Below, in pieces: positions 17,325 to 40,636 of a stretch of 40,662 nucleotides of DNA. Made by a program: the position numbers and the translations under genes. The DNA lies in contig JAQTVW010000003.1 in NCBI GenBank assembly GCA_028706655.1, positions 1 to 40,662 of the forward strand, in the 5' to 3' direction. The stretch's first letter is position 1. Each line of letters opens with the position of its first letter. The stretch comes from Dehalococcoidales bacterium. Its GTDB lineage: Bacteria > Chloroflexota > Dehalococcoidia > Dehalococcoidales > RBG-16-60-22. The notes under the pieces were generated by a model. The model ran no database searches. It was not told where the DNA came from and saw only the letters and a program-made list of their open reading frames with translations.

Positions 17325-17468
17325 GCCGGATTGATTTTAGCGCAATAAGATAGCTTGAGGCAAATATGAGATGGAGTTTGGTGGAGATGGGGTTAAAATA
17401 GGTAGACATTTCCACTTGAGTTCAGTTTGAAAGTTGATGCCTGCTCCAAACGCTAAGGGTTCGTTCTT

Positions 17469-18641
17469 TTATTTTTTCCTACCCGAGCGAGTGAAAGCAA
17501 CAATAACCAGTATAAGCACAATTGCCCCGCCACCTATGGCTACCGGTAAAATCGGGAAGGAAGCAAAAGCCCCGGCAGACGTACCGGCTTTTCGGGCAGG
17601 AGTGGCACTTTCTGCCTTTGCGCGTACAGCATCCCATGCTGCAGCCTCGGCGGCAACGTCAAACTGCGCTATTGCTCCGAAGCCGTAGCGGTTGGCGGTA
17701 ATTGTCTGCCCGCCTGAAAGCATGGCGACAGCCTTATAAGTTTTTTCAGTGACCTGTACGGCACCCTCGATAACTTTCACGGCGGAAGTACCGTCCGCGG
17801 TTTCCTCAATTACGATGGTCGTGCCTTTAATGCCGCATATACCCTGGTTCATCTCGATATCCATGGTGCCATCGGTTACCGTTTTTTTCAAATTAGCCCA
17901 GACGTTACCTTTGAAGGTCTTGACGCTTTTGGCATCCGGCTTTTCGGCGACGATAACCTCGGACTCCGGCTTGAGAACAAAGGTGGACATATCTCCGAAT
18001 GAAAGGACGCATGTACTGTCAATACCTGTTTTAATTCGTGTCCCCGGCGGAAGTTCCGAAGACAGGTCAGCGAAATCCCATTCCCTGGCTCCGGGCAGGA
18101 GAACCTCTACCTGCCCGTTGATTCCGGAGAATTTCGGGCGATAGGCATCGGGTTTCGCAGTTGGCTGTGTCGAAGCCGGTGCCGTGGCAGCGGGGGAAAC
18201 CGTCGTTTGAGCCGCAGGAGCCGGCGAGGGTTCGGTTTTTGTATAGGTAATTTTAAGCTCCAGGCTGCCGCCCGTGTAATGCACGGCGATACTATCCAGC
18301 CAGCCTTTAATCTGGAACTTCTGCGAGATATGGGTGGGATATGGCTCCACATCGCCGACCTTCATGGCATTCACCATAAGGTAGTCATTGTAGTAGTAGT
18401 TGTTAGAAGCATCTTTGTCTGTGTATATGAGACCTACATAAGCTAGTGTTAAATCGCCTGGGCGGATGTATGCCTTTTGGTCTTGTGGTGCAGTGTGTCC
18501 TATCCAGATATGGGTATTATCAGTGGATTTGTTGACGAGAGTGACGCCCTTTTGAACTGTGCCGGAAGCTGCCTGGACGGGGTTTACTATGAGTATTATG
18601 AGCAATAATGAACACAGAAATCCCGTAATAAACTTATTCAT
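17469..18641 (-). CDS. FecR-domain secreted/membrane-anchored protein
   Basis: N-terminal signal peptide, FecR-like LPPGTRIKTGIDSTCVLSFGDMSTFVLKPESEVIVAE..GNVWANL..GICGIKGTTIVIEE, C-terminal TM (PVAIGGGAIVLILVIVAFTRSGRKK). Confidence 0.8.
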   Translation of the reverse strand: MNKFITGFLCSLLLIILIVNPVQAASGTVQKGVTLVNKSTDNTHIWIGHTAPQDQKAYIRPGDLTLAYVGLIYTDKDASNNYYYNDYLMVNAMKVGDVEPYPTHISQKFQIKGWLDSIAVHYTGGSLELKITYTKTEPSPAPAAQTTVSPAATAPASTQPTAKPDAYRPKFSGINGQVEVLLPGAREWDFADLSSELPPGTRIKTGIDSTCVLSFGDMSTFVLKPESEVIVAEKPDAKSVKTFKGNVWANLKKTVTDGTMDIEMNQGICGIKGTTIVIEETADGTSAVKVIEGAVQVTEKTYKAVAMLSGGQTITANRYGFGAIAQFDVAAEAAAWDAVRAKAESATPARKAGTSAGAFASFPILPVAIGGGAIVLILVIVAFTRSGRKK

Positions 18642-18994
18642 TTGACTCCCCGTATAACAAACAAGGTGTTCTTAAAAACACAAAATACGAAAAGTAGGCT
18701 TTGAGAATAAGGACCTTCATGAGACAATTTTCTGCTATTATAAAGTATACTTAAGAATAAGTAAAATAAATCCGGCTGAGAACAGAGTAAAGTCGGCGAT
18801 ACAAATAAATCAAATCTGTATCCGCACCCTTTTATTCCGATTCTGAGAAATGGACACTACGATCCTGACGATGAGAAAGTTAGTAGATACTCCACCTGAA
18901 ACACTGAGCAATGCTCACAATGCTCAATACTCTGCTAAGACAGCACTTCGATAACTCGCATCGATTCACAATATTATGCTTACCGGAATAATAC

Positions 18995-20764
18995 CTAAGA
19001 ATCATGCTTTATGGGTAAAGTAAACGAAAAAGTACTGCCTTTGCTTTTATCACTTTCAACCCATATCTGTCCGCCATGGAGCTGTATGAGCATTTTACTT
19101 ATCGCCAGTCCAAGCCCAATCCCGCCTACCCTTCTTTTATCATCTGCCAGGCGAGCATATGGACTGAACAGGAGTTTTTGATCCTCTTCACTTATACCGA
19201 ATCCTGTATCCTGAACCGAAACAACGACGGCGTCGTTGTTAATTGATGCTTTTAAGGTGATACTTTCACCATCCCCGCTATATTTGGAAGCGTTATCAAT
19301 CAGGTTAAAAATAATTTGCGATAATCGGTCTTCATCAGCATAAACTTCTGGAAGTAAATCCGGTACTTCAATACGTAGGGTTTGCTTACGCTTAGCAATT
19401 ACTGGGGTCATATTCTTATTAATCTGGTCAAGCAAATCTGCCAGATTTATCATATCTGGTCTGATATGGAGCATTCCCATTTCTCCCTTTGACAAATCCA
19501 GAAGATCACTGATGCGATTTTTAAGAACCAGGGAACTCCACTGGACATTATTGATTAATTCCGTCAGAATTCCATCCGCGGATTTATCCAATAACAACTC
19601 GCTCGACGCAATTATTGCAGTCAACGGAGTCATTAGTTCATGGACAATGGCCCGTGTAAAATCTGTTCTTTTCTTAATTTCATCTTCCAGGTCTTGCCGC
19701 AGAGCTTTTTCCCGCTCATATAAATCCTGTAAATTCTGTTGTACTAATTTACGTTCAGTGATATCATGCAAAATAACCAGCCATCCTAACTGCCGGTTAT
19801 TATTATCAAGCATCGGAGCTGTATCCAATTCATAGGAACGCTTCTCTCCAGAAAGATTGAAGGTTAATTCAACATCATCAGACGGGGGTTGCGACAACAG
19901 AGTTAAAACAGGAGACAATGGAGATAAATCGTCCGCCCTCTTTCCAATTATGTTCTGGTTTACTCCGAATATTCTAAGCGCTGCTGCATTTGCCTCCAGT
20001 AAACGGTGGTGCATATCAAGGGCCAACACTCCTTCACTGAGTCGCTCGATTATAAGTTTACGGGCAAAAGGCACCGCTGCAAGCAATTTAAAACGCATGA
20101 CGCCCAAAATAACGACTGCCCCGGAAATCGACAACATTACGGGCGTAAAGTCTTTGCCCGGCAACGACCCCAGGTTGAAAATAAAAATCACATTCCATAT
20201 CACCGGCAACCCGATTGCAACTATCAATGAAATGGCTTGCCCCATGTATAATGGAACGCCTACAAACAGTCTCCTCATCAGGATTACAGCCCCGGCAAAT
20301 ATAAGAATGTACGCATAGGCGTACGCTATCCAGAAAAGAGTCTCATAAGTCCTGGCTGTTACTATAAACGGGCCGGACGTAACCAGGTGCTCGCCGGACC
20401 ACATGAGATGATGCCAATTGTTACTCCAAACCAGCACAATGGAAATCAGCGGAATAATAATAAGAAGGCTGAGTCTCCATGTTACCCGTCGGATGCCGGT
20501 CGTGTAATGTACAGCGAAAATGAGCCAGGCTACCGGCACGCTCCATACGCCGATGTAGCCGATGCTGTTGAAAAACAGTTGCTGCTCAAGTGTTCGTGTA
20601 TTCGTCTCAATATGGAAACCCAGTATCCAGATAAACGTTGCACCAGCCAATGCAACCATCGCTGCCGCCCCGGGGACCTGGCGGCGCTTCCATGCCAGTA
20701 ACATTACGAATATGGAGACCAGCATGGATAATGCCATTGCCCACTGGTAAAAATAATAGTACAT
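18995..20764 (-). CDS. Sensor histidine kinase with N-terminal 7TM region and PAS domain
   Basis: HisKA_7TM-like N-terminus, PAS (VLALDMHHRLLEANAAALRIFGVNQNIIGK), H-box FTRAIVHELMTPLTAIIASSE, N/G boxes LIDNASKYSGDG, VQDTGFGI, GGIGLGLAISKMLIQLHGG. Confidence 0.92.
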   Translation of the reverse strand: MYYYFYQWAMALSMLVSIFVMLLAWKRRQVPGAAAMVALAGATFIWILGFHIETNTRTLEQQLFFNSIGYIGVWSVPVAWLIFAVHYTTGIRRVTWRLSLLIIIPLISIVLVWSNNWHHLMWSGEHLVTSGPFIVTARTYETLFWIAYAYAYILIFAGAVILMRRLFVGVPLYMGQAISLIVAIGLPVIWNVIFIFNLGSLPGKDFTPVMLSISGAVVILGVMRFKLLAAVPFARKLIIERLSEGVLALDMHHRLLEANAAALRIFGVNQNIIGKRADDLSPLSPVLTLLSQPPSDDVELTFNLSGEKRSYELDTAPMLDNNNRQLGWLVILHDITERKLVQQNLQDLYEREKALRQDLEDEIKKRTDFTRAIVHELMTPLTAIIASSELLLDKSADGILTELINNVQWSSLVLKNRISDLLDLSKGEMGMLHIRPDMINLADLLDQINKNMTPVIAKRKQTLRIEVPDLLPEVYADEDRLSQIIFNLIDNASKYSGDGESITLKASINNDAVVVSVQDTGFGISEEDQKLLFSPYARLADDKRRVGGIGLGLAISKMLIQLHGGQIWVESDKSKGSTFSFTLPIKHDS

Positions 20765-21007
20765 TCTTGTTACTAAACCTTACTGTTTAGCATAAACAAT
20801 TATTGCAACAATATATTCGCACTATGCAGCGTAATAATCAAGAAGGGGTGTACCTTAGAATAGTAAATATCCAATGCCGAATTTGTTATTACCATGCAGG
20901 AATAATGGGAATAGCTGAAATGATAGCTTATCAGATGCTTTACATCTGCCGCTGTTCCTGCGTCCCTAGTCGGATGCAATTTGTACGTCTTCATTTCAGC
21001 AGCTTAG

Positions 21008-26294: not shown

Positions 26295-27038
26295 TCAGCG
26301 GCGGCTGCCGGCAGTTGCCAGCGCTTCTTCCCGGCGGCGGGGCTCACCCATGGTCTCCAGGTAGAGCCGGGCGGCGCTCACCCGCAGGTGCTTATCGTTG
26401 TATCCGGCGTCTGCCTTGAGTTTGCTGTACATGCTGTTCAGGTGGTGTTCCACCGTCTTAATATCGATGAATAATGTCTGGGCGATAGCGGCGTTGGTGT
26501 AGCCTTGCGCCAGAAGGCTGAGGATTTCCAGTTCGCGGGAGGTCAGTTGCTTTAAGAACGGGCATTCCGGTTTACCGGCGAACATGAAAGAGGCGAGTTG
26601 CGGGTCCAGGATGACCTGTCCCTGTCGCACCGCGAGGATTGTCCTTAGCAGCTGGTCGACCTGGTCGAGGGACTGCTTCAGGAAGAGCGCCATGCCGCCC
26701 TCGCCTTTGAGCGCGAGACGGCGCAGCATATCGATGTCCTGCGCGCTATAGTGCATCAGCACGAGGATAATCCCCACCCCGGGATTGTTGGTTCGCACTT
26801 GCTCCAGCGCCTCGACGGAACCGGCTTCGAGTCTCTTGGTGCTTAACAGCAATACATCCGGGGACAGTTCACTCACTGCTCTCTTCAGATTCACGATCTC
26901 GCTGCTGCTGGTTACCTCAAGGAGTTCCACGGCAGTCTTATTGGTCAGGACCGAGCGGTAGAGTTCACGGTAAAGCTCTTGCTCTTCAAGTACGTAAAGC
27001 CTGACTGAATCTGATTTTGTCGGTTTCATGAACTCCAC
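26295..27038 (-). CDS. LuxR-type transcriptional regulator with degenerate receiver-like N-terminus
   Basis: C-terminal HTH LTSRELEILSLLAQGYTNAAIAQTLFIDIKTVEHHLNSMYSKL; N-terminal REC-like fold VRLYVLEEQELYRELYRSVL...PDVLLLSTKRLE lacking the usual DD pair and phosphoacceptor Asp. Confidence 0.88.
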   Translation of the reverse strand: MEFMKPTKSDSVRLYVLEEQELYRELYRSVLTNKTAVELLEVTSSSEIVNLKRAVSELSPDVLLLSTKRLEAGSVEALEQVRTNNPGVGIILVLMHYSAQDIDMLRRLALKGEGGMALFLKQSLDQVDQLLRTILAVRQGQVILDPQLASFMFAGKPECPFLKQLTSRELEILSLLAQGYTNAAIAQTLFIDIKTVEHHLNSMYSKLKADAGYNDKHLRVSAARLYLETMGEPRRREEALATAGSRR

Positions 27039-27274: not shown

Positions 27275-27298
27275 GGCACAAACTGGTTAGATTGTGCC
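27275..27298. promoter_or_regulatory. Hairpin/dyad in the long archaellum-regulator intergenic region
   Basis: GGCACAA (27275-27281) and TTGTGCC (27292-27298), perfect 7-bp dyad, 10-nt loop. Confidence 0.4.
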
Positions 27299-27488
27299 AC
27301 GGTTTGCCACCACTGACAATAGGTACTGCCCCCCAAACCATGACGGTGGATTCCTTACTTTAGTACTGGGTGCTGCGCCTGACCGCATTTGAGGAATAAG
27401 TTCGCCAAAGTTGGGGATGGTCTGGTAGCCCACTCGTGGAAGTCAGAGGTAGATTAGTAATGTCCATTTATAGTCAGGAGGGGCAGCG

Positions 27489-28061
27489 ATGCTTACGTGG
27501 TTTAAAAGGCTGCAAGCTAATCAGAGAGGTATCACCGGACTGGAAACAGCTATCATTCTAATCGCTTTCGTGATAGTGGCTTCGGTATTTGCCTATGTCG
27601 TACTTTCCGCGGGGTTATTCTCAGCACAGAAAGCGAAGGAAGCGGTCTATGCCGGCCTGGATGAGACCCGGAGCACCATCGAAATCAAGGGTGATGTCAT
27701 CGGCAAGATGGTAGGCGGCGAAATTACCGAACTATATATTACTGTAGGCGGGCGCCCGGGCAACGAACCGGTTGATTTCACAGATACCTCCGCCGGTACT
27801 AATAAGGTAGTCATCTCCTTCCAGGACGATACTCAAAAATTTTCTTCGGTGAACTGGACGCTCCAGAAACTGAATACCACAAACACGGATAACCTCCTCG
27901 ATCAGAACGAGCTTTTCCAGATTACTGTCGACCTTTCCGTTACGGATAACGTTACTGCCTACCACACTTTCACCATTGAACTGAAACCGCCGGTAGGCGC
28001 CGTAACACCCATCGAACGCACCGTCCCCGCGCGCATCAGCCAGTATGTAAACCTGCATTAA
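27489..28061 (+). CDS. arlB1: Archaellin (archaeal flagellin FlaB/ArlB homolog) 1
   Basis: Class III signal peptide [72 protein letters not shown], followed by a beta-rich domain. SD aggagg upstream. Confidence 0.9.
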   Translation: MLTWFKRLQANQRGITGLETAIILIAFVIVASVFAYVVLSAGLFSAQKAKEAVYAGLDETRSTIEIKGDVIGKMVGGEITELYITVGGRPGNEPVDFTDTSAGTNKVVISFQDDTQKFSSVNWTLQKLNTTNTDNLLDQNELFQITVDLSVTDNVTAYHTFTIELKPPVGAVTPIERTVPARISQYVNLH

Positions 28062-28203
28062 CGGGGGATATTTTAATAATCATTTGCCGCAAGTTGTTTT
28101 GTGAAGGCATAAAAGGAGGTGGTCGCCCGACATAATTAACGAATTAGAAATCACAGGAAATGACTTTTCTTGACGATAACCAGTAAGAATCCAAGGAGGT
28201 AGA

Positions 28204-28860
28204 ATGTTAAACAAATTAATTAAGACTCTCAGAAGGGACGAAAAAGGCATCACCGGTCTTGAGACCGCCATCATCCTGATTGCCTTTGTCGTCGTAGCGG
28301 CGGTATTCGCCTACACCGCATTGTCCGCCGGTCTCTTCTCGACCCAGAAGAGCTCCGAAGCGGTCTATGCCGGACTCCAGGAAGCCCAGAGCACGCTGGA
28401 ACTCAAGGGTTCCGTTGTTGCCACCGCGGGCACCACCGGAGCCAGCGGCACCATCAAGCAGTTAAGCTTCGTCGTTTCCAACGTTCTGCATGGCGAACCG
28501 ATTGACTTCACTCCGCCTTCCGCAGCCGCAGGTAACACCGGTCTGGCTGACGCAGCCAGCACCAACGTTGTCGTCCTCTCATATGTGGATGATGCGCAGC
28601 GGATAGACGACCTGTATTGGACGATTACCAAGCTGGGGAAAGAAGATGGCGATAACATTCTGGAAGACGGTGAGAAATTCCAGATCGTCGTCGGTAACGC
28701 AACCACTGCTGCCGGCGGCGGCAACATGATCGATGCCCTGACCACGGACCTTAGCCCGAACAAGAAATTCAGTCTTGAAGTCAAGCCCGCAGTCGGCGCT
28801 ATCCTGGTCATTGAGCGCACCACTCCGCCTTACTTCGATGCCATCATGAATCTGCGTTAA
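28204..28860 (+). CDS. arlB2: Archaellin (FlaB/ArlB homolog) 2
   Basis: [78 protein letters not shown] aaggagg at about 28193. Confidence 0.92.
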   Translation: MLNKLIKTLRRDEKGITGLETAIILIAFVVVAAVFAYTALSAGLFSTQKSSEAVYAGLQEAQSTLELKGSVVATAGTTGASGTIKQLSFVVSNVLHGEPIDFTPPSAAAGNTGLADAASTNVVVLSYVDDAQRIDDLYWTITKLGKEDGDNILEDGEKFQIVVGNATTAAGGGNMIDALTTDLSPNKKFSLEVKPAVGAILVIERTTPPYFDAIMNLR

Positions 28861-28927
28861 GCAGAAAACACGTAAACGGATTTGCACTAATCGCAACAAA
28901 ACAGAATTTTTGGAGGAATAAAATAAA

Positions 28928-29581
28928 ATGAATAAACTTTTTAGAATGCATCGCGGGCAGAAGGGTATCACCGGTCTTGAGACCGCCATCATCCTGATTG
29001 CCTTTGTCGTCGTAGCGGCAGTATTCGCCTATACCGCGTTATCCGCCGGTCTCTTCTCCACCCAGAAGAGCTCCGAAGCGGTCTATGCCGGACTTAAAGA
29101 AGCCCAGAGCACCCTGGAACTGCGCGGCTCAGTCATTGCCACTGCCAACGCCACCGGCGCCAGCGGCACTATCAAACAGATAACCTTCACCGTTTCCAAC
29201 GTTCTGCATGGCGAACCTCTTGACTTCACGGCTCCCACCGCCGCGGCTTCTGCCACCGGCGTCGCCAATGCTACCAGCAACAACGTCGTAGTCATTTCCT
29301 ACATCGATGCTTATCAGAGAGTAGACGACCTGTATTGGACTGTTACCAAACTGGGGAAAGATGACGGCGATGACATTCTCGAAGATACCGAGAAATTCCA
29401 GATCACCGTTGGCGGCGATACCGCCGGCGTTGCCCCGGGCAACCTGATTGATGCCCTTGCCAGCACCGACCTCGGCCCCAACACCAAGTTCTCCCTGGAA
29501 ATCAGACCGCCGAACGGCGCGGTGCTCGTCATCGAGCGCACCACTCCGCCCATCATCGATACTATCATGAACCTGCGCTAA
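28928..29581 (+). CDS. arlB3: Archaellin (FlaB/ArlB homolog) 3
   Basis: [77 protein letters not shown]; highly similar to archaellin 2. Confidence 0.92.
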
Positions 29582-29597
29582 TAACTGCCTGTTTATG

Positions 29598-29628
29598 AGG
29601 GTGGGGATGGCACTACTGTCCCCACCCT
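29598..29628 (+). promoter_or_regulatory. Intercistronic stem-loop after the archaellin genes (attenuator, stabiliser or weak terminator)
   Basis: AGGGTGGGGA (29598-29607) / TCCCCACCCT (29619-29628), 10-bp perfect stem, 11-nt loop, no U-tract following. Confidence 0.6.
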
Positions 29629-29741
29629 TACCCCGCCCGCCCGTGGGACATTGTAGGTCACCCGCTGTCCTGAAGCTGTGGGAAAAGACAAAGGTGGCAA
29701 GAGCCCCAGCGATAGACCACGAGGAGTAACGGAGGGCTTCT

Positions 29742-30218
29742 GTGGAAAAAGCCATAACTACAGCTTTACTCATCATAACGGGAGTGATTTGCATGATATT
29801 CGTTTTCAACAGCGTCTACCCCATGATCAATCGCTCCAGCCATGCTATGGTGAGCATGGCTGATACTATTGATGAGCGGATGAAGAGCCGCGTGAATATC
29901 GTGCACGCCACTAATTCCTCCGACCGCCGGACAATTTATATCTGGGTCAAGAACGTGGGTACGTCCCGCATCGTCGATGTCGAGAGCACCGATGTGTTCT
30001 TCGGCCTGGAAACCAACTTCGCCCGCATCCCGCACGAAAGTGATGCGGGGGGCGTTTATCCCCAGTGGGCGTACACCATTGAAAATGATACCGAATGGAA
30101 AGCCAGTGCGACGGTGAAAATCACGATTACTTATACGGTCGCCCCGAGCTCTGGCACCTATTATATTAAAGTCATCATACCGAACGGTATTGAAGACGAA
30201 TATTACTTCAGCATGTAG
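29742..30218 (+). CDS. Archaellum FlaG/FlaF-like stator/pseudopilin protein (a)
   Basis: GTG start; N-terminal TM MEKAITTALLIITGVICMIFVFNSVYPMINRSSHAM then beta-domain RVNIVHATNSSDRRTIYIWVKNVGTSRIVDVESTDVFFG, the layout of FlaF/FlaG soluble domains. Confidence 0.78.
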   Translation: MEKAITTALLIITGVICMIFVFNSVYPMINRSSHAMVSMADTIDERMKSRVNIVHATNSSDRRTIYIWVKNVGTSRIVDVESTDVFFGLETNFARIPHESDAGGVYPQWAYTIENDTEWKASATVKITITYTVAPSSGTYYIKVIIPNGIEDEYYFSM

Positions 30219-30229
30219 CGGGGGAAGTT

Positions 30230-30754
30230 ATGGAGACAGCGATAGTCTCGATAATTTGTTTAGCACTGGTAGTCTTCGGGGGCATGACGATGTCTCAGGG
30301 CTTTCTTACATCTGTGGACAGCACCACGGTGAGTCTCAAGGAAATCGGGCAGAGCAGCGAAGATATCATGCGCACCCAGATTTCGGTGGAGGATATCTAT
30401 ACCAGCCTTGGCGGCTTGTATTTATATGTGACTCTGGACAACGATGGACAAACGAAGTTATCCAATTTCAGTAAATGGGATGTCATCGTCCAGTACTACG
30501 ATGATGCCGGCATCCTCCATAATATCTGGATGCCGTATACTACCACCAATCCTCCGCCTTCCGGGCAGTGGACGGTGCAGTGGATTTATTACGGCGCAGA
30601 CCCGGAGACGTTCGAGCCGAATATCCTCAATCCCGGGGAACGTATGCGGATCCGGGCTCAATTTAGCCCGGATATCGGAAATGATACCGTCAACATGGTC
30701 ACTATTTCGACCTCTAACGGAGTGCCCATCTCCGCCCAGTTTGACGGTCCATAA
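30230..30754 (+). CDS. Archaellum FlaF/FlaG-like stator/pseudopilin protein (b)
   Basis: METAIVSIICLALVVFGGMTMSQGFLTSVDSTTVSLKEI then GGLYLYVTLDNDGQTKLSNFSKWDVIVQYYDDAG..ILNPGERMRIRAQF; N-terminal TM plus Ig-like beta domain. Confidence 0.75.
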   Translation: METAIVSIICLALVVFGGMTMSQGFLTSVDSTTVSLKEIGQSSEDIMRTQISVEDIYTSLGGLYLYVTLDNDGQTKLSNFSKWDVIVQYYDDAGILHNIWMPYTTTNPPPSGQWTVQWIYYGADPETFEPNILNPGERMRIRAQFSPDIGNDTVNMVTISTSNGVPISAQFDGP

Positions 30755-30788
30755 AATATAAATAATATCGGAGATACAGGATATATAA

Positions 30789-32291
30789 ATGTTTGAAAGC
30801 CTGACCAATAAACTGAAAGCCGTCTTCGAACCGCTGCGTAAGAACCAGCGCCGGAACATGATGAGCTTTGACCTGCTTTATCAGCTTTCTTACATGTCCG
30901 TCATCGCCGCCGGCGGCGTGCCGCGCGCCCAGATATTTGAACGCGCCGCCAAGCTGCCCTGCACCGCGGCGGACTATTTCAACCGCATCGAGCTTGCCTC
31001 CAAAAGATTGAAATATGACTACGCCCAGGCTTGCCGCCTCGTGGGGGAATCCGCCGAGGAAGAATCTATAAAAGCGCTGCTTTTACGGTTTTCCGCCTCG
31101 CTGATATCCGGCGAGCCGGAAGCGGAGTTCCTGGCGCGGGAAGCCGAGGCGCAGGCGGATAACTACGATAATGAATACGGACGCAACCTGGAAGCCATGA
31201 AAATGTGGACTGATGCCTACGTGTCGCTAATCCTTTCCGCGGTACTGGTCATTATCATCGGCATTGTGTCCACCATGATCTGGAAAATCGAGACGAGCCT
31301 GATTATTGCCATGGCATTCATCTCCATCATGACTACGGCGACAGGCGTCTGGCTGATATATGTCGTATCGCCTAAAGAAACAATGGTCTTGAGCTGGGCA
31401 GGCTCCCGTGAACAGCTTATGGCGCAAAGACTGCTCAAGTTTACCCTGCCGCTGGCGGTCATCGGGGGGCTCACCCTGTTGATATTGAAAGCAGACCTCG
31501 GCTGGGTGCTCATCGCCGCGGCGGTCCTGGTCCTTCCAATAGGTGTCGTCATGACCCGCGACGACCAGAAAGTGACCAGTCGCGATGGTGAAGTGGGCAC
31601 TTTCCTGCGGTCGCTGGGCGGCGTCTGCGCCGCACTGGGCACCACGGTCAATTCCGCGCTCAACCGGCTGGACCTGGACTCCATCAACAACCTGCGAAGC
31701 CCGGTCAAAGGACTGCGCACCAGGCTCGTCGCCGGTATCAAGTCCCGAATGTGCTGGAGCCGGTTTATCGACGAGACCGGCAGCGAGCTGACCAACCGCA
31801 GCGTCGGCATGTTTTACGATGCTATCGATATGGGTGGATCGGCAGGTCAAGCCGGCTACCAGGCGTCACTCTTTGCCAGTAAAATTGCGTTGCTTCGCGC
31901 CAGGCGCAAGACGGTTTCCGGTCCTTTCCGCTGGCTTTGCCTGGCGATGCACGGCTCGGTGGTGGTGCTTCTTGTTTTCGTCAGCGAAGTCATCATGTCT
32001 TTCGCGGGAATGGTCTCCCAGGCGCAGGAAGCCATGCCGCGCGTATCAGGCGCGCCGTCCGTGGCGGCTTTCACCAGCTTCAACCTCTCCGGTCTGGAGG
32101 TAATGCATTCTCTGGTGCTGCCCCTTGTTTTGATATTTACCATAGCCAATGCCATCGCGCCCATGCTGGCGGACGGGGGAAGCAAGAAAAAAATTCTCTT
32201 TAATCTGGGCATGACCGCCGCTATTTCCGGCTTTAGCCTGGTGGCGCTGCCCGGTCTGGCACAAGCATTGTTCCTATCGACAGATATGTGA
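30789..32291 (+). CDS. arlJ: Archaellum platform protein FlaJ/ArlJ (TadC/GspF-like)
   Basis: 500 aa with two GspF-like cytoplasmic/TM modules: DLLYQLSYMSVIAAGGVPRAQIFERAAKL..YFNRIELASKRLKYDYAQACRLVGE; C-terminal TMs; position among archaellum genes. Confidence 0.88.
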   Translation: MFESLTNKLKAVFEPLRKNQRRNMMSFDLLYQLSYMSVIAAGGVPRAQIFERAAKLPCTAADYFNRIELASKRLKYDYAQACRLVGESAEEESIKALLLRFSASLISGEPEAEFLAREAEAQADNYDNEYGRNLEAMKMWTDAYVSLILSAVLVIIIGIVSTMIWKIETSLIIAMAFISIMTTATGVWLIYVVSPKETMVLSWAGSREQLMAQRLLKFTLPLAVIGGLTLLILKADLGWVLIAAAVLVLPIGVVMTRDDQKVTSRDGEVGTFLRSLGGVCAALGTTVNSALNRLDLDSINNLRSPVKGLRTRLVAGIKSRMCWSRFIDETGSELTNRSVGMFYDAIDMGGSAGQAGYQASLFASKIALLRARRKTVSGPFRWLCLAMHGSVVVLLVFVSEVIMSFAGMVSQAQEAMPRVSGAPSVAAFTSFNLSGLEVMHSLVLPLVLIFTIANAIAPMLADGGSKKKILFNLGMTAAISGFSLVALPGLAQALFLSTDM

Positions 32292-32292
32292 G

Positions 32293-32493
32293 GTGAAAAT
32301 AATGACCAGCGAAGAACGAATCAAGGCACTTGAAGAGGAATTTCAGCAGGCGAAGGAAGAAATCAGGCAGATACTGATGGATATCCGCACTTACCTTATG
32401 GAGGCGCAGACTCCTATCCCGAACGACCTGGAGCGCGCGGAGATGAGGGCGGAATCTTCCCGACAGGTAGCGGACAGAGGAGGTAAAGCCTAA
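32293..32493 (+). CDS. Small coiled-coil protein, tandem paralog of the N-terminus of the next gene
   Basis: ERIKALEEEFQQAKEEIRQILMDIRTYLMEAQTPIPND; ATG at 32302 is a more likely start than GTG at 32293. Stop overlaps the next start (taATG). Confidence 0.65.
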   Translation: MKIMTSEERIKALEEEFQQAKEEIRQILMDIRTYLMEAQTPIPNDLERAEMRAESSRQVADRGGKA

Positions 32494-33473
32494 TGGAAAA
32501 TGATGCGAGAATCCAGACTCTGGAAGAAGAGTTTAAACTGATAAAAGGTGAATTGAAACAGACACTGACCAGTGTCCGCGAATATCTGATGGAAACCGGG
32601 CTGCCCGATTCCGAATACACTACCATTCTTGCCGCGATGGCTGGCGGCGCCGAGAGCCAGAAGATAGAAATGAAGGGCGACTTCGCCATGCCGAAGAAGC
32701 CGGAACCGGAAGAGGAAGAGGAAATCGTCGAGGAACTGGAAGAGACCCAGGATAATGAATCGAACGATTCGCAGGCTGAGGACTCCGAAGATTCCGGCGA
32801 CGATGTTGAAGAATCGGAAGAAGAGTTAGGAGAGTCCGGCGCATCGGACGATGCTGACGAATCAGACGGGTCTCCGGAAGCAGAAGCGTTAGAACAAGCA
32901 GAAGCTGCCGGAGAAGAAATGCTTGCTGAAAATGGCGGCGAACTGTCACAGGGGGAACAGATGGCTCAAGGACTCATGGAACCGCAGACTGCATACGCAA
33001 GGATGGGCAGGGTAATCGCCCAGGATACGCCGCGGGTCAACCTGCTGGCGAACCTCATCCGCTGGGTGGCTGCCGCCAGAAGAGAAATCGGCGTCGAGCA
33101 ACTGGCGACCTTCCTGGAAGTCTATGGCATCTGCGGGCACCTGACACCGGAGCTTAAAGAAGTGATTATCCGGCTTTCTGATGTGGCGCAGCCGCAATCT
33201 GAAGAAGCGGGTGCGGCTGATGTCTGGAGCCGGTTGCTGCTGGAACTGCATGGCATCCTCACCGGCGCAGACGCTCCGGCGCATGCGATGAAACCCATCT
33301 GGAACGATGGCAAAGCCGCCGTACCTGCCGTTAAAGAAAAGGTTGAGGAGCCCAAAGACGAGCCGATGCAGCTGAAGCTGGTTTTAAAGGATAGTAAAGG
33401 CAACGACCGCGAGTTCAATCTCAACCTCACTCCCGCGGCGGAAACCAAAAAACCACCGGCTAAGCGCAAATAG
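32493..33473 (+). CDS. FlaD/E-like archaellum accessory protein with coiled-coil N-terminus and acidic linker
   Basis: N-terminal RIQTLEEEFKLIKGELKQTLTSVREYLME; long Glu/Asp/Ser-rich linker; then VNLLANLIRWVAAARREIGVEQLATFLEVYGICGHLTPELKEVIIRLSDVA resembling the FlaD/E domain. Confidence 0.68.
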   Translation: MENDARIQTLEEEFKLIKGELKQTLTSVREYLMETGLPDSEYTTILAAMAGGAESQKIEMKGDFAMPKKPEPEEEEEIVEELEETQDNESNDSQAEDSEDSGDDVEESEEELGESGASDDADESDGSPEAEALEQAEAAGEEMLAENGGELSQGEQMAQGLMEPQTAYARMGRVIAQDTPRVNLLANLIRWVAAARREIGVEQLATFLEVYGICGHLTPELKEVIIRLSDVAQPQSEEAGAADVWSRLLLELHGILTGADAPAHAMKPIWNDGKAAVPAVKEKVEEPKDEPMQLKLVLKDSKGNDREFNLNLTPAAETKKPPAKRK

Positions 33474-33509
33474 TAAATTATATTCCTCAGGGAAAAGGGA
33501 AGTGATGTT

Positions 33510-34226
33510 ATGGCGGAACCGAAAGTAAAAAGAGAGGTAATCTGCACGGGGGTCGCGGAAGTGGACGAGCGGCTGGGCGGCGGCATACCCGTCGGTTCGC
33601 TGTGCTTGATTGAAGGGCACTCTGATTCCGGGAAGAGCGTGCTCTGCCAGCACCTGACCTACGGTACTCTCTCCAACGCCGAGTCATCGGTGGCTTACTA
33701 CACTACGGAGAACAGCATCCGCAGCCTGGTCACGCAGATGGATTCGCTCTCCATGTATACCATGGACCATTTTCTGGCAGACCATTTCCGCATTTATCCG
33801 CTGATATTCCGGAACAACACCCATGACGGCAAAAAACCGTTTATGGTGCTGACGCACCATTTTTCAAAACTGCCCAAGCAATTCAAGCTGGTGATTATCG
33901 ATTCGATTACGATTCTCGTGGCGCACAGTAACCCCGTCTCGATTATCGATTTCTTTTCCCAGTGCAAACAGCTGTGCGATGACGGACGCTCTATCATCGT
34001 CGTCTCCCACTCGTATGCCTTCGAAGAAGACATGTTGGCGCGTACCCGCTCGCTATGTGATGCCCGTTTCCGTCTCCGGCTGGAGCAGATCGGCGACCGT
34101 ATGGTCAAGCTGATGGAAGTACTCAAGGTGCGCGGCGCCGACCGTCCCACGGGAGATGTTGTGAGCTTTGATATTGAACCCAAAGTTGGGATGCGTATCA
34201 TCCCGCTGGCTAAGGCGAGGGTCTAG
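33510..34226 (+). CDS. arlH: Archaellum ATPase-like protein FlaH/ArlH (RecA/KaiC-like)
   Basis: ICTGVAEVDERLGGGIPVGSLCLIEGHSDSGKSVLCQHLTYG Walker A; FKLVIIDSITILVAHS Walker B; C-terminal FDIEPKVGMRIIPLAKARV. Confidence 0.93.
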   Translation: MAEPKVKREVICTGVAEVDERLGGGIPVGSLCLIEGHSDSGKSVLCQHLTYGTLSNAESSVAYYTTENSIRSLVTQMDSLSMYTMDHFLADHFRIYPLIFRNNTHDGKKPFMVLTHHFSKLPKQFKLVIIDSITILVAHSNPVSIIDFFSQCKQLCDDGRSIIVVSHSYAFEEDMLARTRSLCDARFRLRLEQIGDRMVKLMEVLKVRGADRPTGDVVSFDIEPKVGMRIIPLAKARV

Positions 34227-34234
34227 GAGGCTCC

Positions 34235-35986
34235 GTGCTCAAGCTGCCGTTTGAGTTCAAGTCTTGCACCCAGGAGTGCGGCAAAATCTGCGGCACGGAA
34301 GTCGAACACTGCTCGACGTATCAAAAACTGCCGCCGCCGATCCAGGAAGTATGCAAGAAGAGCCCGCACCTGCTGAATTACCTGCATGCCTTCCCGATAG
34401 ACAAACTGGGCATGCCGGAATATTTCGCCAAGGTGGGGCGCAGCTTGAAAGGGAAGAAGAACCCCAACCTGATTTACCCGGCAGGCAGTGATGTCTTCAT
34501 TCATATCCTGTCTAATCCTGAAGATGTCCGCGACCATTACGTTCCCATCGAACCCAGTCTCGCGGACGGGCAGGAAGACTTCCTTGATCAGATTGAGGCG
34601 CGGCTGGCGGACTATGTGGAAGACCTGGAAGGGATTACCGAAGCCGCCAAACGGCTGGAAGTCGTGATGCAAATCGTGGACAAGGTGGTCAATGTGAGGG
34701 CTGTGCTCCCGCCTAAAGCCGGCGCCGGGAAAAAGAGCGGCAGATTCGGGATGCTGACCGCCACAAAAGAAAAACTGGTCATCACGCCCGTGCAATATGC
34801 CAGTCTGCGCTACCTGCTGCGCCGCAAACTGGAAGGACTGGGGCTGCTGCAACCCCTGATTGACGACCCCAACATTGAAGATATTTCTTGCTCCGGACTG
34901 GGCAACATCTTCGTCGAACATAAGCTCTTCGGCGGACTGCGCACCAGCATCTGCTTTGAAGAACATACCGAGCTGGACAAATTTGTCATCCAGCTTGCCG
35001 AGGGTATCAGGCACCCGGTTACCTTCCGCGAACCCTGCGTCGACGCCACGCTGCCGGACGGCTCTCGTATCAACATCGTCTACGGCACGGATGTCTCCAA
35101 GAGAGGCAGCAACTTCACCATCCGAAAATTTTCGGATACCCCCATCAGCGTACTGGAACTGGTGGGATTCAACTCCATGAACTATGAAATGGCGGCGTAC
35201 CTTTCGATTATTCTCCAGGAAGGGATGAATGTCTGGGTGTCCGGAGAGACTGCTTCCGGTAAGACGACTCTGCTCAATGCGCTGACTACTTTCATTGCGC
35301 CCGAAGCTAAAATCGTCAGCATCGAAGATACCCCGGAAGTGCAGGTGCCGCACCATAACTGGATCCGCGGCGTAACCCGCGGCTCCGCCAAAAACTCGGA
35401 ATCTTCAGAGGTCTCCATGTTCGATCTGCTCAAGGCTGCCTTGCGGCAGAGACCCAACCTGATTATTGTCGGTGAAATCCGTGGTGCGGAAGGAGCAATC
35501 GCATTCCAGGCAATGCAGACCGGACATGCCTGCATGAGTACCTTCCATGCCGCCTCCGTCGCCAAGCTCATCCAGCGCGTCACCGGCAATCCCATCAACG
35601 TGCCCAAGACTTATGTCGATAACCTCAACGTGATTATCATTGCACAACAGGTGCGTCTGCCCAGCGGCTCGCTCGCCCGCCGCGTCACCAGCATCAATGA
35701 AATAGTCAGCTATGATTCAGTATCCGATTCATTTTCATTTATTGAAGTATTTAACTGGGACCCGCTGACCGATACCTTCAATTTTCGCGGCTTTCAGAAC
35801 TCCTATCTGCTGGAGTACAAGATTGCGCCGCGGCGCGGCTTGCCGCACGAAAAACGCCGCGAGGTATATAAGGTGCTTAAGCAGCGCGCCGATATTTTAA
35901 AAAGGATTGCCGACCAAAAAAAGACCAACTTTTATGAAGTATATGCTATTTTGTCCAAGGCAAAACGGGACGGGCTTTTCCGCTAA
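34235..35986 (+). CDS. arlI: Archaellum assembly/rotation ATPase FlaI/ArlI
   Basis: GTG start 9 nt after arlH stop; VWVSGETASGKTTLLNALTTFIAPEAKIVSIEDTPEVQVPHHNWI, RPNLIIVGEIRGAEGAIAFQAMQTGHACMSTFHAAS (Walker A, Asp box, Walker B, His box). Confidence 0.95.
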   Translation: MLKLPFEFKSCTQECGKICGTEVEHCSTYQKLPPPIQEVCKKSPHLLNYLHAFPIDKLGMPEYFAKVGRSLKGKKNPNLIYPAGSDVFIHILSNPEDVRDHYVPIEPSLADGQEDFLDQIEARLADYVEDLEGITEAAKRLEVVMQIVDKVVNVRAVLPPKAGAGKKSGRFGMLTATKEKLVITPVQYASLRYLLRRKLEGLGLLQPLIDDPNIEDISCSGLGNIFVEHKLFGGLRTSICFEEHTELDKFVIQLAEGIRHPVTFREPCVDATLPDGSRINIVYGTDVSKRGSNFTIRKFSDTPISVLELVGFNSMNYEMAAYLSIILQEGMNVWVSGETASGKTTLLNALTTFIAPEAKIVSIEDTPEVQVPHHNWIRGVTRGSAKNSESSEVSMFDLLKAALRQRPNLIIVGEIRGAEGAIAFQAMQTGHACMSTFHAASVAKLIQRVTGNPINVPKTYVDNLNVIIIAQQVRLPSGSLARRVTSINEIVSYDSVSDSFSFIEVFNWDPLTDTFNFRGFQNSYLLEYKIAPRRGLPHEKRREVYKVLKQRADILKRIADQKKTNFYEVYAILSKAKRDGLFR

Positions 35987-36021
35987 AATCCGGTCCGCAG
36001 CCGTAACGAAGGGGGTACGAA

Positions 36022-36552
36022 ATGTTTTTTAATGCGCGCCGCTCCAAAGATAAGGGTGTCCCGCCAGAGAAACCGGGCGAAGACAGCGCGGAACTCAAAG
36101 TACAGCAAATAGAAAGCCTCGAAGAACTGGTCGCCAGGCGGACCCAGGGACTAAAGGAAGCCCAGCAGCAATTGAGCCAGCTGACCACGGAAGCCGCTCC
36201 CAAAGAGGGGAAAGAAGACCCCAAGGTGGATGCACTCTTTACACAACCCGCTCCGCCGGTGGAAGCAGCGAAGCTGGAAGAGACCGTGCTCAAGACAGTA
36301 GACCTCAACTCTTTGCTTAAAACCGAGACGCCGCCGGTTGAAGTTAAAGCCGCTCCGGCGGTAGAGAAGGTAGTCGCCGAAAAGAAGCCGGAAGAAATCA
36401 TGAGTGATTCTTTGGCTGACCTCTTCAATCAGGAAGATGAAAAAGAAAATCCCCTCGCGGGGCTTATCCGCTCTTTACCGGTAGTCTCCGCAGGCGAACT
36501 CCTCAACGAAGCCAAAGAAGTGAGTACCATCATCAGGGAATGGCGGCGCTAA
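36022..36552 (+). CDS. Uncharacterised cytoplasmic coiled-coil protein in archaellum operon
   Basis: SD gaaggggg before ATG; N-terminal coiled coil VQQIESLEELVARRTQGLKEAQQQLSQL, Pro/Glu/Ala-rich middle, C-terminal PLAGLIRSLPVVSAGELLNEAKEVSTIIREWRR. Confidence 0.8.
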   Translation: MFFNARRSKDKGVPPEKPGEDSAELKVQQIESLEELVARRTQGLKEAQQQLSQLTTEAAPKEGKEDPKVDALFTQPAPPVEAAKLEETVLKTVDLNSLLKTETPPVEVKAAPAVEKVVAEKKPEEIMSDSLADLFNQEDEKENPLAGLIRSLPVVSAGELLNEAKEVSTIIREWRR

Positions 36553-36742
36553 ATGATTCATATCAGGCGTAAACAAAACGAGGTAAGGGTAGACTCCCAG
36601 AACAATAGGGGGTATCGTGGTTGTCGCCCGGGATGCGCAGGAGTAATTTGAAGCTATGGGTATAGTTTGGGGCGATTCGCGTAACTTCGACCGTTTTCCG
36701 GTACTGAAGGCAACCAGACTCCGCATCAAGGGGGTAACAGAC

Positions 36743-38242
36743 ATGGCAAACGGAACGAAGCGAATAAAAGTCAGTCCGTATTTATGGCATATCATGGCGA
36801 TTACGCTGGTGTGTGCTATCCTGTATTACCTGCCGGTAATTGCAGGTATGGCGGGCTGGACGGTCGCCCGGGACAACCTCGGCATCTTCCATGATTTTTA
36901 CGGCATCGATTTTTATGCCCTGGTCTTCTTTGCGCCGGTGGTCTATACCGCCTATATGCTTGGCGTACAGTGGGCAATAGTGGTCGCGATAATCTCTACC
37001 GTTCTGATTATCCCTTATGCCATCGCTTTCGACCCGTATCCCAACGTCATGTTCAAACCGGCTTCTTTCGGCATTATCCTGAGCGCGGTAGGCGCGGTGG
37101 TGGCGATGCTGCAACGGAGCGATGAACAGCGCCGCCAGAGCCTGAAAGAATTGAAATGCCTTTATGACATCGGGCGGGTAGCTGAAGAGAATGATTCCAT
37201 AGAACATTTTCTTATGGCGGCGGTGACGCTCATCCCGCAGGCAACGCGATATCCGGGCGAAGCAGAGGTCAGGATTACCCTGCGGGACAAGGTATTACAA
37301 AGCCCCGGTTTTGATGAAAAAGGCGGTAAACTACTCAAAGAAGACCTGATGCTCAGCGGCGAGGCGCTGGGGCGTATCGAGATATATTCAACGCACGGCT
37401 ATGCCTACCTGGCAAAGCAGCAGCCGTTTATCAACACCGTCGCGGACAGAATCGTGAGTGCGGTGCATGAGATAGAACTGGCGCTGTCGCTCCAAGGCTA
37501 TTACACACAATTGGAAGAGATGGTGGAGAAGCGGACCGCGGACCTGGAAGAAACCCGCGAAAAGCTCATCCGCTCGGAGCGGCTGGCTGCCGTGGGGGAA
37601 CTGGCTTCCGGAGTCGGACATGAGCTGCGCAATCCGCTCAACGTCATCCGCAACTGCGTTTACCTGCTCAAGATGGGTATGGACGAAAAGGCGGATGAAG
37701 AAACGCTCAATACCCTCAAACTGCTGGACCGGCAGATTGATATTTCCAACCGCATCGTCTCCGACCTGCTCGATTTTACCCGCATCCGCCCGCCCACCCG
37801 GAGTAAAGTCGATTTGAACGGGCTGATAAAAGAGAGCCTTTCCTGGGTGGCTGCGCCGGACAAGACAAAAGTAACTGCGGATTTCAACGGGAAATCGCCG
37901 CAGGTGAAGATAGACGCCGAACAAATCGGCCGCGCGTTCGCCAACATCATCAGCAACGCCTACCAGGCGATGAACGGTAAGGGCGGCGAACTCAAGGTCG
38001 CCATTGACGCCGATGACGCTTATGCCTGGGCGCAGTTCACGGACAACGGCTGCGGCATACCGGCAGAAAACTTGACCAGGATATTTGAGCCCCTGTTCAC
38101 CACCAAGCCCAAGGGCATCGGGCTTGGACTGGCAATTACCAGGCGATTGGTGGAGCAAAACAGCGGGGTTGTCAGCGTCGCCAGCAAGGTTGGCGAAGGG
38201 ACGACATTTACGGTAAAACTGCCGCTTAATGAAAGGAGCTAA
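36743..38242 (+). CDS. Membrane sensor histidine kinase
   Basis: ORF starts at 36656, but ATG at 36743 has a strong SD (aaggggg). N-terminal TM helices, GAF-like region, H-box GVGHELRNPLNVIRN, ATPase NIISNAYQAMNGKGG, DNGCGIPAENL, GIGLGLAITRRLVEQNSG. Confidence 0.92.
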   Translation: MANGTKRIKVSPYLWHIMAITLVCAILYYLPVIAGMAGWTVARDNLGIFHDFYGIDFYALVFFAPVVYTAYMLGVQWAIVVAIISTVLIIPYAIAFDPYPNVMFKPASFGIILSAVGAVVAMLQRSDEQRRQSLKELKCLYDIGRVAEENDSIEHFLMAAVTLIPQATRYPGEAEVRITLRDKVLQSPGFDEKGGKLLKEDLMLSGEALGRIEIYSTHGYAYLAKQQPFINTVADRIVSAVHEIELALSLQGYYTQLEEMVEKRTADLEETREKLIRSERLAAVGELASGVGHELRNPLNVIRNCVYLLKMGMDEKADEETLNTLKLLDRQIDISNRIVSDLLDFTRIRPPTRSKVDLNGLIKESLSWVAAPDKTKVTADFNGKSPQVKIDAEQIGRAFANIISNAYQAMNGKGGELKVAIDADDAYAWAQFTDNGCGIPAENLTRIFEPLFTTKPKGIGLGLAITRRLVEQNSGVVSVASKVGEGTTFTVKLPLNERS

Positions 38243-38244
38243 TC

Positions 38245-39021
38245 ATGGCAGAGCCGATTAACGTACTCGTGGTTGATGACAACGAGGACTTACTGGAGAC
38301 CCTGGCACTGATATTAAAAAGGCGCGGTTTCAATGTCGATACCGCAACTGACGGAGCTGCCGCGGTAGAAAAATACGCCGCGCGTGACTTCGACGTTGCT
38401 TTGATGGATATCGTCATGCCGAATATGAACGGCGTGGAAGCCTTCCGGAAAATCAGGGAGATGGACCCCGGCGCCGCCGTTATTCTGATGACGGCTTATT
38501 CCGAGGAGGCACTCATCCGCAGCGCCATCGATGGGGGCGCTCATCAGGTAGTGCATAAACCCATCAGCATCGACCAGATGATAGCGCTGCTTAAAGAGGC
38601 GGCAAAGAGCCAGGCGATTCTTATCGTTGACGACGACGAAGATATTCTCGGTACGATGAGCAAGGCATTTGAAATCGAAGGGTATCGCGTGCTTGCCGCC
38701 GGCAGCGGCGAAGAAGCGGTCAAACTGGCTAAAGAAAAGCAGTGCCAGATAGCCTTCGTTGATGTCAAGCTGCCGATGATGGACGGTTTGGAGACCTACC
38801 TCCATCTGAAAGAGATTAATCCCAATATCATGACGGTGATGATGACCGGCTTCCGCGATGAAGTCAAAGACGCCCTGGAAAAGGCGCAGGAAGCAAAAGC
38901 GATTGAGTGCCTTTTCAAGCCTTTCAGCCCGGTAAAAGCGCTGGAAATGGTCAGTCATCTCCGCAGCGCAGGTAAGGCGGGTTCCCGTAATGGAAAACAA
39001 AAAGAGCATTCTGGTTGTTGA
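38245..39021 (+). CDS. Tandem receiver-domain response regulator without output domain
   Basis: Two REC domains: INVLVVDDNEDLLETLA..VALMDIVMPNMNG..ILMTAY..VVHKPIS and AILIVDDDEDILGTMSKAF..IAFVDVKLPMMDG..VMMTGF..CLFKPFS. Confidence 0.93.
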   Translation: MAEPINVLVVDDNEDLLETLALILKRRGFNVDTATDGAAAVEKYAARDFDVALMDIVMPNMNGVEAFRKIREMDPGAAVILMTAYSEEALIRSAIDGGAHQVVHKPISIDQMIALLKEAAKSQAILIVDDDEDILGTMSKAFEIEGYRVLAAGSGEEAVKLAKEKQCQIAFVDVKLPMMDGLETYLHLKEINPNIMTVMMTGFRDEVKDALEKAQEAKAIECLFKPFSPVKALEMVSHLRSAGKAGSRNGKQKEHSGC

Positions 39022-40636
39022 TGATGAGCTTGATTTCCTCACGGTAATCAAGCGTATTTTACAGGTCAAAGGTTACGAAGTAACTACTGCGCCCACTGCA
39101 GGCGAAGCAGTGGCAAGGGCGCAGACGCACTTCTATAACGCGGCGATTCTGGATATCAGCCTCCCGGACATGGCGGGCACGGAACTTCTGAGCGTCCTTC
39201 TTGAAATGCACCCGGACACTATCGCTGTGATGCTTACCGGGCATTCCTCGGTGCAGAATGCGGTCGTTTCGCTCAACCGGGGCGCCTTTGCCTACCTGGA
39301 AAAGCCGCTCGACCCGGACCACCTGCTTTCGGTACTGGAGCAGGGTCTGGAAAAGCAGCGGCTGTCTCTGGAGAACCACCGTCTGGTTGCCGAACTGGAA
39401 GAGCGCAACCGCATTACCAACATCCTGTTGAATATATCGCAGGCGGCTGCCAAGACGCTGGACTTAAAACAAATTATCGAAACCGCCCTGGAGAAGGTCA
39501 CTGATTCGGTCACCGTTGAGGCGGATTTTCTTTATCTTTACGAAGAAAAACTGGTTCTCAAGGGACAGCACGGTTTGCCCGAATCGCTCGCCGGGCGGAT
39601 GGCGGAGCAGGTGGAGCAGGGGCTTATTGGCAGGGTCTATCAGCAGAACGAGCCTGTCGCGATTAATGATATTTCCGCCGAGCCGGATCTGGCATTCCTG
39701 GCAAAGGAAGGTTATTTGTCCGGGGCGTGCGTCCCGCTGGCGATTCTGGGCGAAAGCATCGGAGTATTGGGAGTGGTGACACGCGTTAAGCGGCACTTCA
39801 CCAATAGCGATATCGCGCTTTTAACCGCCATTGGTAAAGAGATTGGCATTGCCATCCAGAACTCGCGGCTTTATGAACAGGCATCGAGCGCGCGGGCGCT
39901 GCGGGAACTGGATGCTCTGCGCACGGAATTTCTGGCGAATGTCAGCCACGAACTGCGCACGCCGCTCGCCGTTATTAAAGGTTCTGCCAGCAGTCTGCTC
40001 CAGCCCGATGTTGATTTTGATGAAGAGACCCGCCGCGATTTTCTGCAGTCTATCGATAAAGACGCCGACCGGCTCAGCCGGCTGGTCAATGACCTGCTGA
40101 TGATGTCCCGTCTGGAAGCGGGCGCGCTGGAAGTCAAGCGGAAACCGCACCACCTGGCGGAAGTCATCGCCGGCGTGAAAGACCGACTGGACAGCATCAC
40201 CGTGAGACATCAACTGCTGATTGATATTCCACCGGCACTGCCGCCGGTCAAAGTTGACGATGGACGTATCGGTGAGGTATTGACCAACCTGGTGGAAAAT
40301 GCCACCAAGCATGCCGAGACGGGCACACGCATTACTATCAGCGCCCATCCTGAAAAGGGGTGCGAGTTAGTGGTCAGTGTGACCGATGAAGGCATCGGCA
40401 TTCCGCCGGAACTTCATCACAAGATATTTGGACGCTTTTATCAGGTGGAAAACAGTAAGCGGGGCAATCGCAAGGGCACCGGCCTGGGACTGGCAATCTG
40501 CAGGGGCATTATCGAAGCGCACAGCGGGCGAATCTGGGTGGAAAGCGCCAGCGGTAAAGGCTCCAAATTCAGCTTCAGCCTGCCAGTGGAAGAACCCGCC
40601 GGCAAAGGGAAGCCGGAACTGGTACGGACGGTTTAG
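38990..40636 (+). CDS. Hybrid sensor kinase REC-GAF-HisKA-HATPase
   Basis: REC SILVVDDELDFLTVIKRIL..AILDISLPDMAG..VMLTGHSS..YLEKPLD; GAF region; NVSHELRTPLAVIKG; NLVENATKHAE..VTDEGIGIPPE..GTGLGLAICRGIIEAHSG. Confidence 0.94.
   Translation: MENKKSILVVDDELDFLTVIKRILQVKGYEVTTAPTAGEAVARAQTHFYNAAILDISLPDMAGTELLSVLLEMHPDTIAVMLTGHSSVQNAVVSLNRGAFAYLEKPLDPDHLLSVLEQGLEKQRLSLENHRLVAELEERNRITNILLNISQAAAKTLDLKQIIETALEKVTDSVTVEADFLYLYEEKLVLKGQHGLPESLAGRMAEQVEQGLIGRVYQQNEPVAINDISAEPDLAFLAKEGYLSGACVPLAILGESIGVLGVVTRVKRHFTNSDIALLTAIGKEIGIAIQNSRLYEQASSARALRELDALRTEFLANVSHELRTPLAVIKGSASSLLQPDVDFDEETRRDFLQSIDKDADRLSRLVNDLLMMSRLEAGALEVKRKPHHLAEVIAGVKDRLDSITVRHQLLIDIPPALPPVKVDDGRIGEVLTNLVENATKHAETGTRITISAHPEKGCELVVSVTDEGIGIPPELHHKIFGRFYQVENSKRGNRKGTGLGLAICRGIIEAHSGRIWVESASGKGSKFSFSLPVEEPAGKGKPELVRTV

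Follow-up and report, generated by a model that had tools for sequence, protein, structure and literature searches.

Archaellum locus of the window

We analysed a stretch of 40,662 bases (the window), the whole of contig C68 of a metagenome-assembled genome (MAG) of the order Dehalococcoidales, and found that ten co-directional, close-packed genes at 27489-36552 very probably encode a vertically inherited Chloroflexota archaellum that is assembled, rotates and is regulated by flanking genes. The source organism is a relative of Dehalococcoides with a complete-looking archaellum gene set. The draft MAG (1.82 Mb, 151 contigs) is 94.6% complete and 6.6% contaminated. Its nearest neighbours are Dehalococcoidia, in line with a first-pass annotation that had reported an archaellum locus in a bacterium. 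The ten genes are as follows.

27489..28061, + strand: arlB1, archaellin (PF01917, E 1.4e-29; best PDB match 9i5h, E 8e-41)
28204..28860, + strand: arlB2, archaellin (PF01917, E 4.7e-25)
28928..29581, + strand: arlB3, archaellin (PF01917, E 2.3e-26)
29742..30218, + strand: arlG-like, putative stator protein (ArlG model NF052591, E 1.1e-6, under the cut-off; position and length conserved)
30230..30754, + strand: arlF-like, putative stator protein (PF01917, 29.9 bits, cut-off 29.5; FlaF_Ig-like, E 4e-6)
30789..32291, + strand: arlJ, membrane platform (best model NF004703, E 4.3e-111)
32493..33473, + strand: arlCDE-like, acidic protein of 326 residues with a DE-like C-terminal domain (profile comparison and SAR202 synteny)
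33510..34226, + strand: arlH, KaiC-like ATPase (NF004723, 256 bits, cut-off 194; PDB 4yds, FlaH, E 9e-29)
34235..35986, + strand: arlI, motor ATPase (NF058587, 662 bits, cut-off 550; PDB 4ii7, FlaI, E 6e-127)
36022..36552, + strand: Y176, small acidic protein of 176 residues with a conserved C-terminal helix-like motif (no family match)

Searches with family models confirmed the three archaellins, FlaJ, FlaH and FlaI that had been read from the sequence, and the remaining genes named there, the FlaF/G-like pair included, are present where stated. PF01917 scored above its cut-off for three archaellin genes, and a class III signal peptide is present. Ile15 of ArlB1 aligns with the first mature residue of 9i5h, which we take to be the archaellin of the swimming bacterium Litorilinea aerophila because its first residue is an Ile of the mature type, as in the archaellin that PMC12488501 describes. 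ArlH was assigned by NF004723 and scored 190 bits against the stricter equivalog NF052589 (cut-off 215); ArlJ, the platform protein, scored 372 bits against NF004703, under the strict equivalog cut-off of 570. In ArlI the Walker A, Asp box, Walker B and His box motifs are all intact. A Tad or type IV pilus locus has GspE/TadA-type ATPase and TadC-type platform folds in common with an archaellum and might be misread as one. However, ArlI scored 662 bits as an archaellum motor compared with 166 for TadA and 68 for PilB, neither its model scores nor its tree position points to TadA or PilB clades, and the locus contains ArlH and an archaellin domain with a class III signal. A misread pilus locus is hardly credible, and the original choice of an archaellum over such systems was upheld.

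The putative stator proteins are more diverged: the ArlF-like protein barely passes the PF01917 cut-off, and the ArlG-like protein was placed by weak matches to the ArlG/ArlF models (E 1e-6) together with its position. A FlaD/E-like protein had also been proposed. Its gene was found, and the 326-residue product had no match in the Pfam or NCBIfam models. Using hhalign, its C-terminal domain aligned with ten archaeal PF04659 (ArlD/E) proteins over 73 columns (probability 58, E 1e-4), and homologues of the gene in SAR202 loci lie where arlCDE normally stands, after arlB and before arlG. A predicted structure of the domain (predicted local distance difference test, pLDDT, 69) gave no meaningful PDB match in a fold search. 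We treat the protein as a putative, unproven ArlCDE-like protein. In one locus, a second protein with an ArlCDE-like domain (L043:17675-18382) lies downstream of the kinase module described below.

Relationship to other Chloroflexota archaella

We compared 93 ArlI proteins in an unrooted tree, 66 rows from Chloroflexota and 27 from one archaeal phylum. All 66 Chloroflexota rows were split from the archaeal rows by a branch with a support of 100. The ArlI of the window, whose best archaeal match reached 43%, lies in a clade of 17 rows (support 99) that we term own type, and in the window arlG precedes arlF, as in L. aerophila. ArlI proteins from loci named as Dehalococcoidales, Dehalococcoidia or Chloroflexi/Chloroflexota (L035-L045 and L069) match that of the window at 61-88%. 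At E ≤ 1e-100, ArlI was found in 26 of the 156 genomes of the order, 13 of them in the window's own family. A search for archaeal ArlI from plasmids gave three partial matches (40-42% identity), which were not used.

The presence of an archaeal operon on a bacterial contig could reflect faulty assembly or binning, and the MAG is indeed a draft with 6.6% contamination. In a same-genus MAG (L035/L107), though, the order Elp3, methyltransferase, DUF4286, LuxR on the - strand, arlB1-3 and the rest is unbroken, most genes being 72-94% identical to those of the window and the arlCDE-like gene 66%. The junction and gene order recur there and in several other MAGs, and therefore the contig is not chimeric at 27 kb, as the first-pass annotation had cautioned it might be. 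ArlI also groups with Chloroflexota, and Shine-Dalgarno sites occur throughout, with a match of at least five of six positions in 10 of 13 genes compared with 5% of random positions. We regard an artefact of this kind as exceedingly improbable. The flanks are bacterial, as previously described, and contain OadB, FecR, LuxR, kinases and Elp3. Two further claims fared less well: the tup genes were supported in part, by a solute-binding protein and a GntR-PBP regulator, and the coding strand immediately 5′ of arlB1 showed no promoter of the sigma70 type.

Prepilin peptidase, cell wall and chemotaxis genes

The genome encodes one A24 prepilin peptidase, of the bacterial PilD type, which would act on class III signal peptides. 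It contains no Mur ligases, its sole Mur-ligase-type protein being FolC by sequence, and the same-genus MAG agrees; peptidoglycan is therefore probably absent from the source cell. At most one Mur-ligase-type match was found in each of the 25 archaellum-bearing genomes of the order tested (G000 and 24 others), whereas each of six archaellated genomes from other parts of the class carries six or seven such genes. Within one class, archaella are thus found in members with a wall and in members apparently without one. The low counts in these 25 genomes (FolC in the one inspected) are in tension with a 2026 envelope paper (PMC13319060), according to which 235 of 244 archaellated Chloroflexota have peptidoglycan genes, and that count deserves to be rechecked. 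Neither a CheW-domain protein nor a chemoreceptor (MCP) was found in the genome or in the same-genus MAG. CheW is also lacking in 23 of 33 further genomes with an archaellum, among them G030, which consists of a single contig.

Regulatory genes flanking the locus

Regulatory genes on both sides of the ten genes, whose connection with them the first-pass annotation overlooked, belong to the conserved unit.

26295..27038, - strand: LuxR-type regulator, divergent, with an aspartate-less receiver-like domain (GerE PF00196, E 9e-15)
27290..27460, + strand: non-coding leader of arlB1 (conserved over about 170 nt in 10 loci)
36656..38242, + strand: HK1, membrane histidine kinase (HisKA and HATPase)
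38245..39021, + strand: RR2, two receiver domains and no output domain (two PF00072 stretches; syntenic in own-type loci)
38990..40636, + strand: soluble REC-GAF-HisKA-HATPase hybrid kinase, REC-GAF-HK (Pfam architecture; syntenic in own-type loci)

Own-type loci have the order LuxR on the - strand, arlB several times, G, F (often twice), J, CDE-like, H, I, Y176, HK1, RR2 and REC-GAF-HK, whereas other clades have B, (CDE), G, F, H, I, J. Since duplication of arlF and a variable arlHIJ order are already mentioned in PMC12488501, the own-type order is a variant already glimpsed. Y176 is recognisable between arlI and HK1 in most own-type loci. The LuxR regulator lies divergent beside arlB in 10 own-type loci, and its phospho-acceptor position is Ser or Gly, never aspartate, in all ten aligned orthologues. 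The arlB1 leader has the consensus core CAAGATTGGGGATGGTCTGGTGG, a motif confined to these loci among the 192 compared. It is not a small open reading frame (ORF), with stops in all frames, and it was rejected as a riboswitch, with no Rfam match, no significant fold by z-score and one weak helix of six pairs.

Downstream, in the loci read, HK1 follows directly 3′ of either ArlI or Y176. An HK1 orthologue is present in 14 of the 31 genomes of the family, namely 14 of the 15 with an archaellum and none of the 16 without archaellum genes (Fisher p 8e-6, before correction for two truncated loci). Those two, G477 and G478, had seemed to contain HK1 without an archaellum; each carries Y176 or a C-terminal ArlI fragment beside HK1 at a contig end, so these are truncated archaellum loci. 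This co-inheritance suggests that the adjacent kinase module regulates the archaellum. In another class-level clade, two loci (L063 and L066) carry HK1-like and REC genes (about 30% identity) 3′ of the archaellum, plus a further archaellin-like gene; the kinase association there is possibly independent.

Predicted function

From homology and the precedent of L. aerophila (PMC12488501), we infer the following mechanism. The bacterial-type PilD, encoded elsewhere in the genome, would trim the three archaellins, with the cut in ArlB1 predicted before Ile15. A hexamer of ArlI, seated on ArlJ as its platform and modulated by ArlH, would add archaellins and turn the filament, so that the cell could swim. 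ArlF and ArlG would serve as stators anchored outside the membrane that resist the torque, and the ArlCDE-like protein may act as the switch that couples the motor to signals. Because peptidoglycan is probably absent, the filament would have to cross only the membrane and, presumably, a coat resembling an S-layer. The divergent LuxR regulator and the HK1, RR2 and REC-GAF-HK module may control expression or motor behaviour. The window provides a well-supported case of a bacterial archaellum in a cell apparently without a wall or chemotaxis, where anchoring and control must differ from those of cultured L. aerophila.

The same genes might instead specify an adhesive or signalling pilus derived from an archaellum, which no longer rotates or supports swimming. 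The absence of chemotaxis genes, the divergence of the ArlG and ArlCDE parts and the rearranged order, with arlJ ahead of the arlCDE-like gene and arlH, would fit such a pilus. On the other hand, the locus retains the ArlF/G stators, ArlH and the ArlCDE-like protein, which separate archaella from archaeal pili, the catalytic motifs of ArlI are all intact and a related machine propels swimming L. aerophila. We consider loss of rotation quite unlikely.

Several points nevertheless weigh against a rotating, vertically inherited archaellum controlled by its neighbours. Sequence gives weak grounds for the assignments of ArlCDE, ArlG and ArlF, and we found no report of an observed archaellum filament in Dehalococcoidales. 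The absences of CheW, MCP and Mur genes rest on the draft assembly and its stated completeness and contamination. Three archaellum-bearing members of the family (G481, G487 and G488) have CheW and MCP, and in G487 and G488 these occur together with the kinase module, which weakens the idea that the module simply replaces chemotaxis. The ArlI tree, being unrooted and limited to one archaeal phylum, does not show the direction of transfer, which therefore rests on PMC12488501; the transfer published there, derived from Methanotecta and received by the ancestor of Dehalococcoidia and Anaerolineae, agrees with the inter-domain transfer proposed in the first-pass annotation.

With regard to control, we put forward a specific model only tentatively and think it rather doubtful: the archaellum of this family would be uncoupled from CheA/CheW chemotaxis and run by the co-encoded phosphorelay (HK1, the REC-REC protein RR2 and REC-GAF-HK) with the aspartate-less LuxR regulator, and RR2 or Y176 would replace CheY-CheF at the ArlCDE-like switch. 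The conserved kinase module supplies concrete candidates for the link that, as suggested in PMC12488501, possibly evolved in place of CheF.

Comparison with known bacterial archaella

Bacterial archaella are already known, and the kind found in the window is not new; the first-pass annotation was right to warn of previous reports from Chloroflexota, which take away most of the novelty. Hug et al. (2013, PMC3971608) described an archaellum operon in Chloroflexi RBG-1351 which, like that of the window, unites FlaHIJ, FlaF and FlaG with three archaellins, from an organism reported to lack peptidoglycan, as the window's source probably does. FlaCDE and FlaK were reported absent from it; here both loci contain an ArlCDE-like gene, and the genome of the window encodes a bacterial PilD. 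The RBG-1351 locus is probably that of Chloroflexi bacterium RBG_13_51_52 (L039), as judged from the names, which has the layout of the window and the kinase module; L039 and L109 of G486, a member of the window's family, are apparently one contig. Lim et al. (2023, PMC10444878) reported an archaellum cluster in SAR202 (Chloroflexota, Dehalococcoidia). ArlI proteins from SAR202 records fall in the same Chloroflexota clade as that of the window, but the SAR202 loci compared here have the order B-(CDE)-G-F-H-I-J.

Sivabalasarma et al. (2025, PMC12488501) found archaella in about 244 Chloroflexota genomes, Dehalococcoidales included, and described a swimming isolate, L. aerophila, and its filament structure. 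Like the window, L. aerophila has ArlB, ArlG before ArlF, ArlJ, ArlH and ArlI in one locus and a bacterial PilD elsewhere, and its archaellin, which we take to be 9i5h, is the closest solved homologue. Unlike the window's source, it synthesises peptidoglycan, carries PilN and PilO-LysM close to the locus and possesses a cheY homologue, whereas the window has the J-CDE-H-I order and an embedded kinase module, and its genome has no Mur ligases, CheW or MCP. The present analysis adds the family-specific gene order, the conserved aspartate-less LuxR, the co-inherited kinase module and the lack of genes for chemotaxis and the wall, together with an ArlCDE candidate, of which the 2013 paper reported none.

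Tandem ArlI genes in other genomes

Eight Dehalococcoidales genomes contain two tandem ArlI genes between arlH and arlJ (loci L114-L120 and L179; genomes G437, G451, G066, G431, G433, G030, G429 and G430). The copies are 56-64% identical in the seven pairs measured, and the ATPase motifs are intact in both. They fall into two groups of orthologues (supports 91 and 96) and therefore derive from one old duplication. The pair in G066 was considered as a fusion and proved to be two separate ORFs. Tandem ArlI genes also occur in five archaeal genomes (L070/L121, L146, L147, L148 and L150), likewise placed between arlH and arlJ and with the ATPase motifs of both copies intact; the copies are 61-66% identical and stem from a separate old duplication. 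These pairs run counter to a published claim that every known archaellum encodes a single ATPase, and may prove more interesting than the window.

Low-G+C stretch of the window

The stretch from 17000 to 21000, which spans the FecR-domain gene and a 7TM-PAS histidine kinase gene, has a G+C content of about 43% compared with about 55% elsewhere in the window, and was possibly acquired recently.

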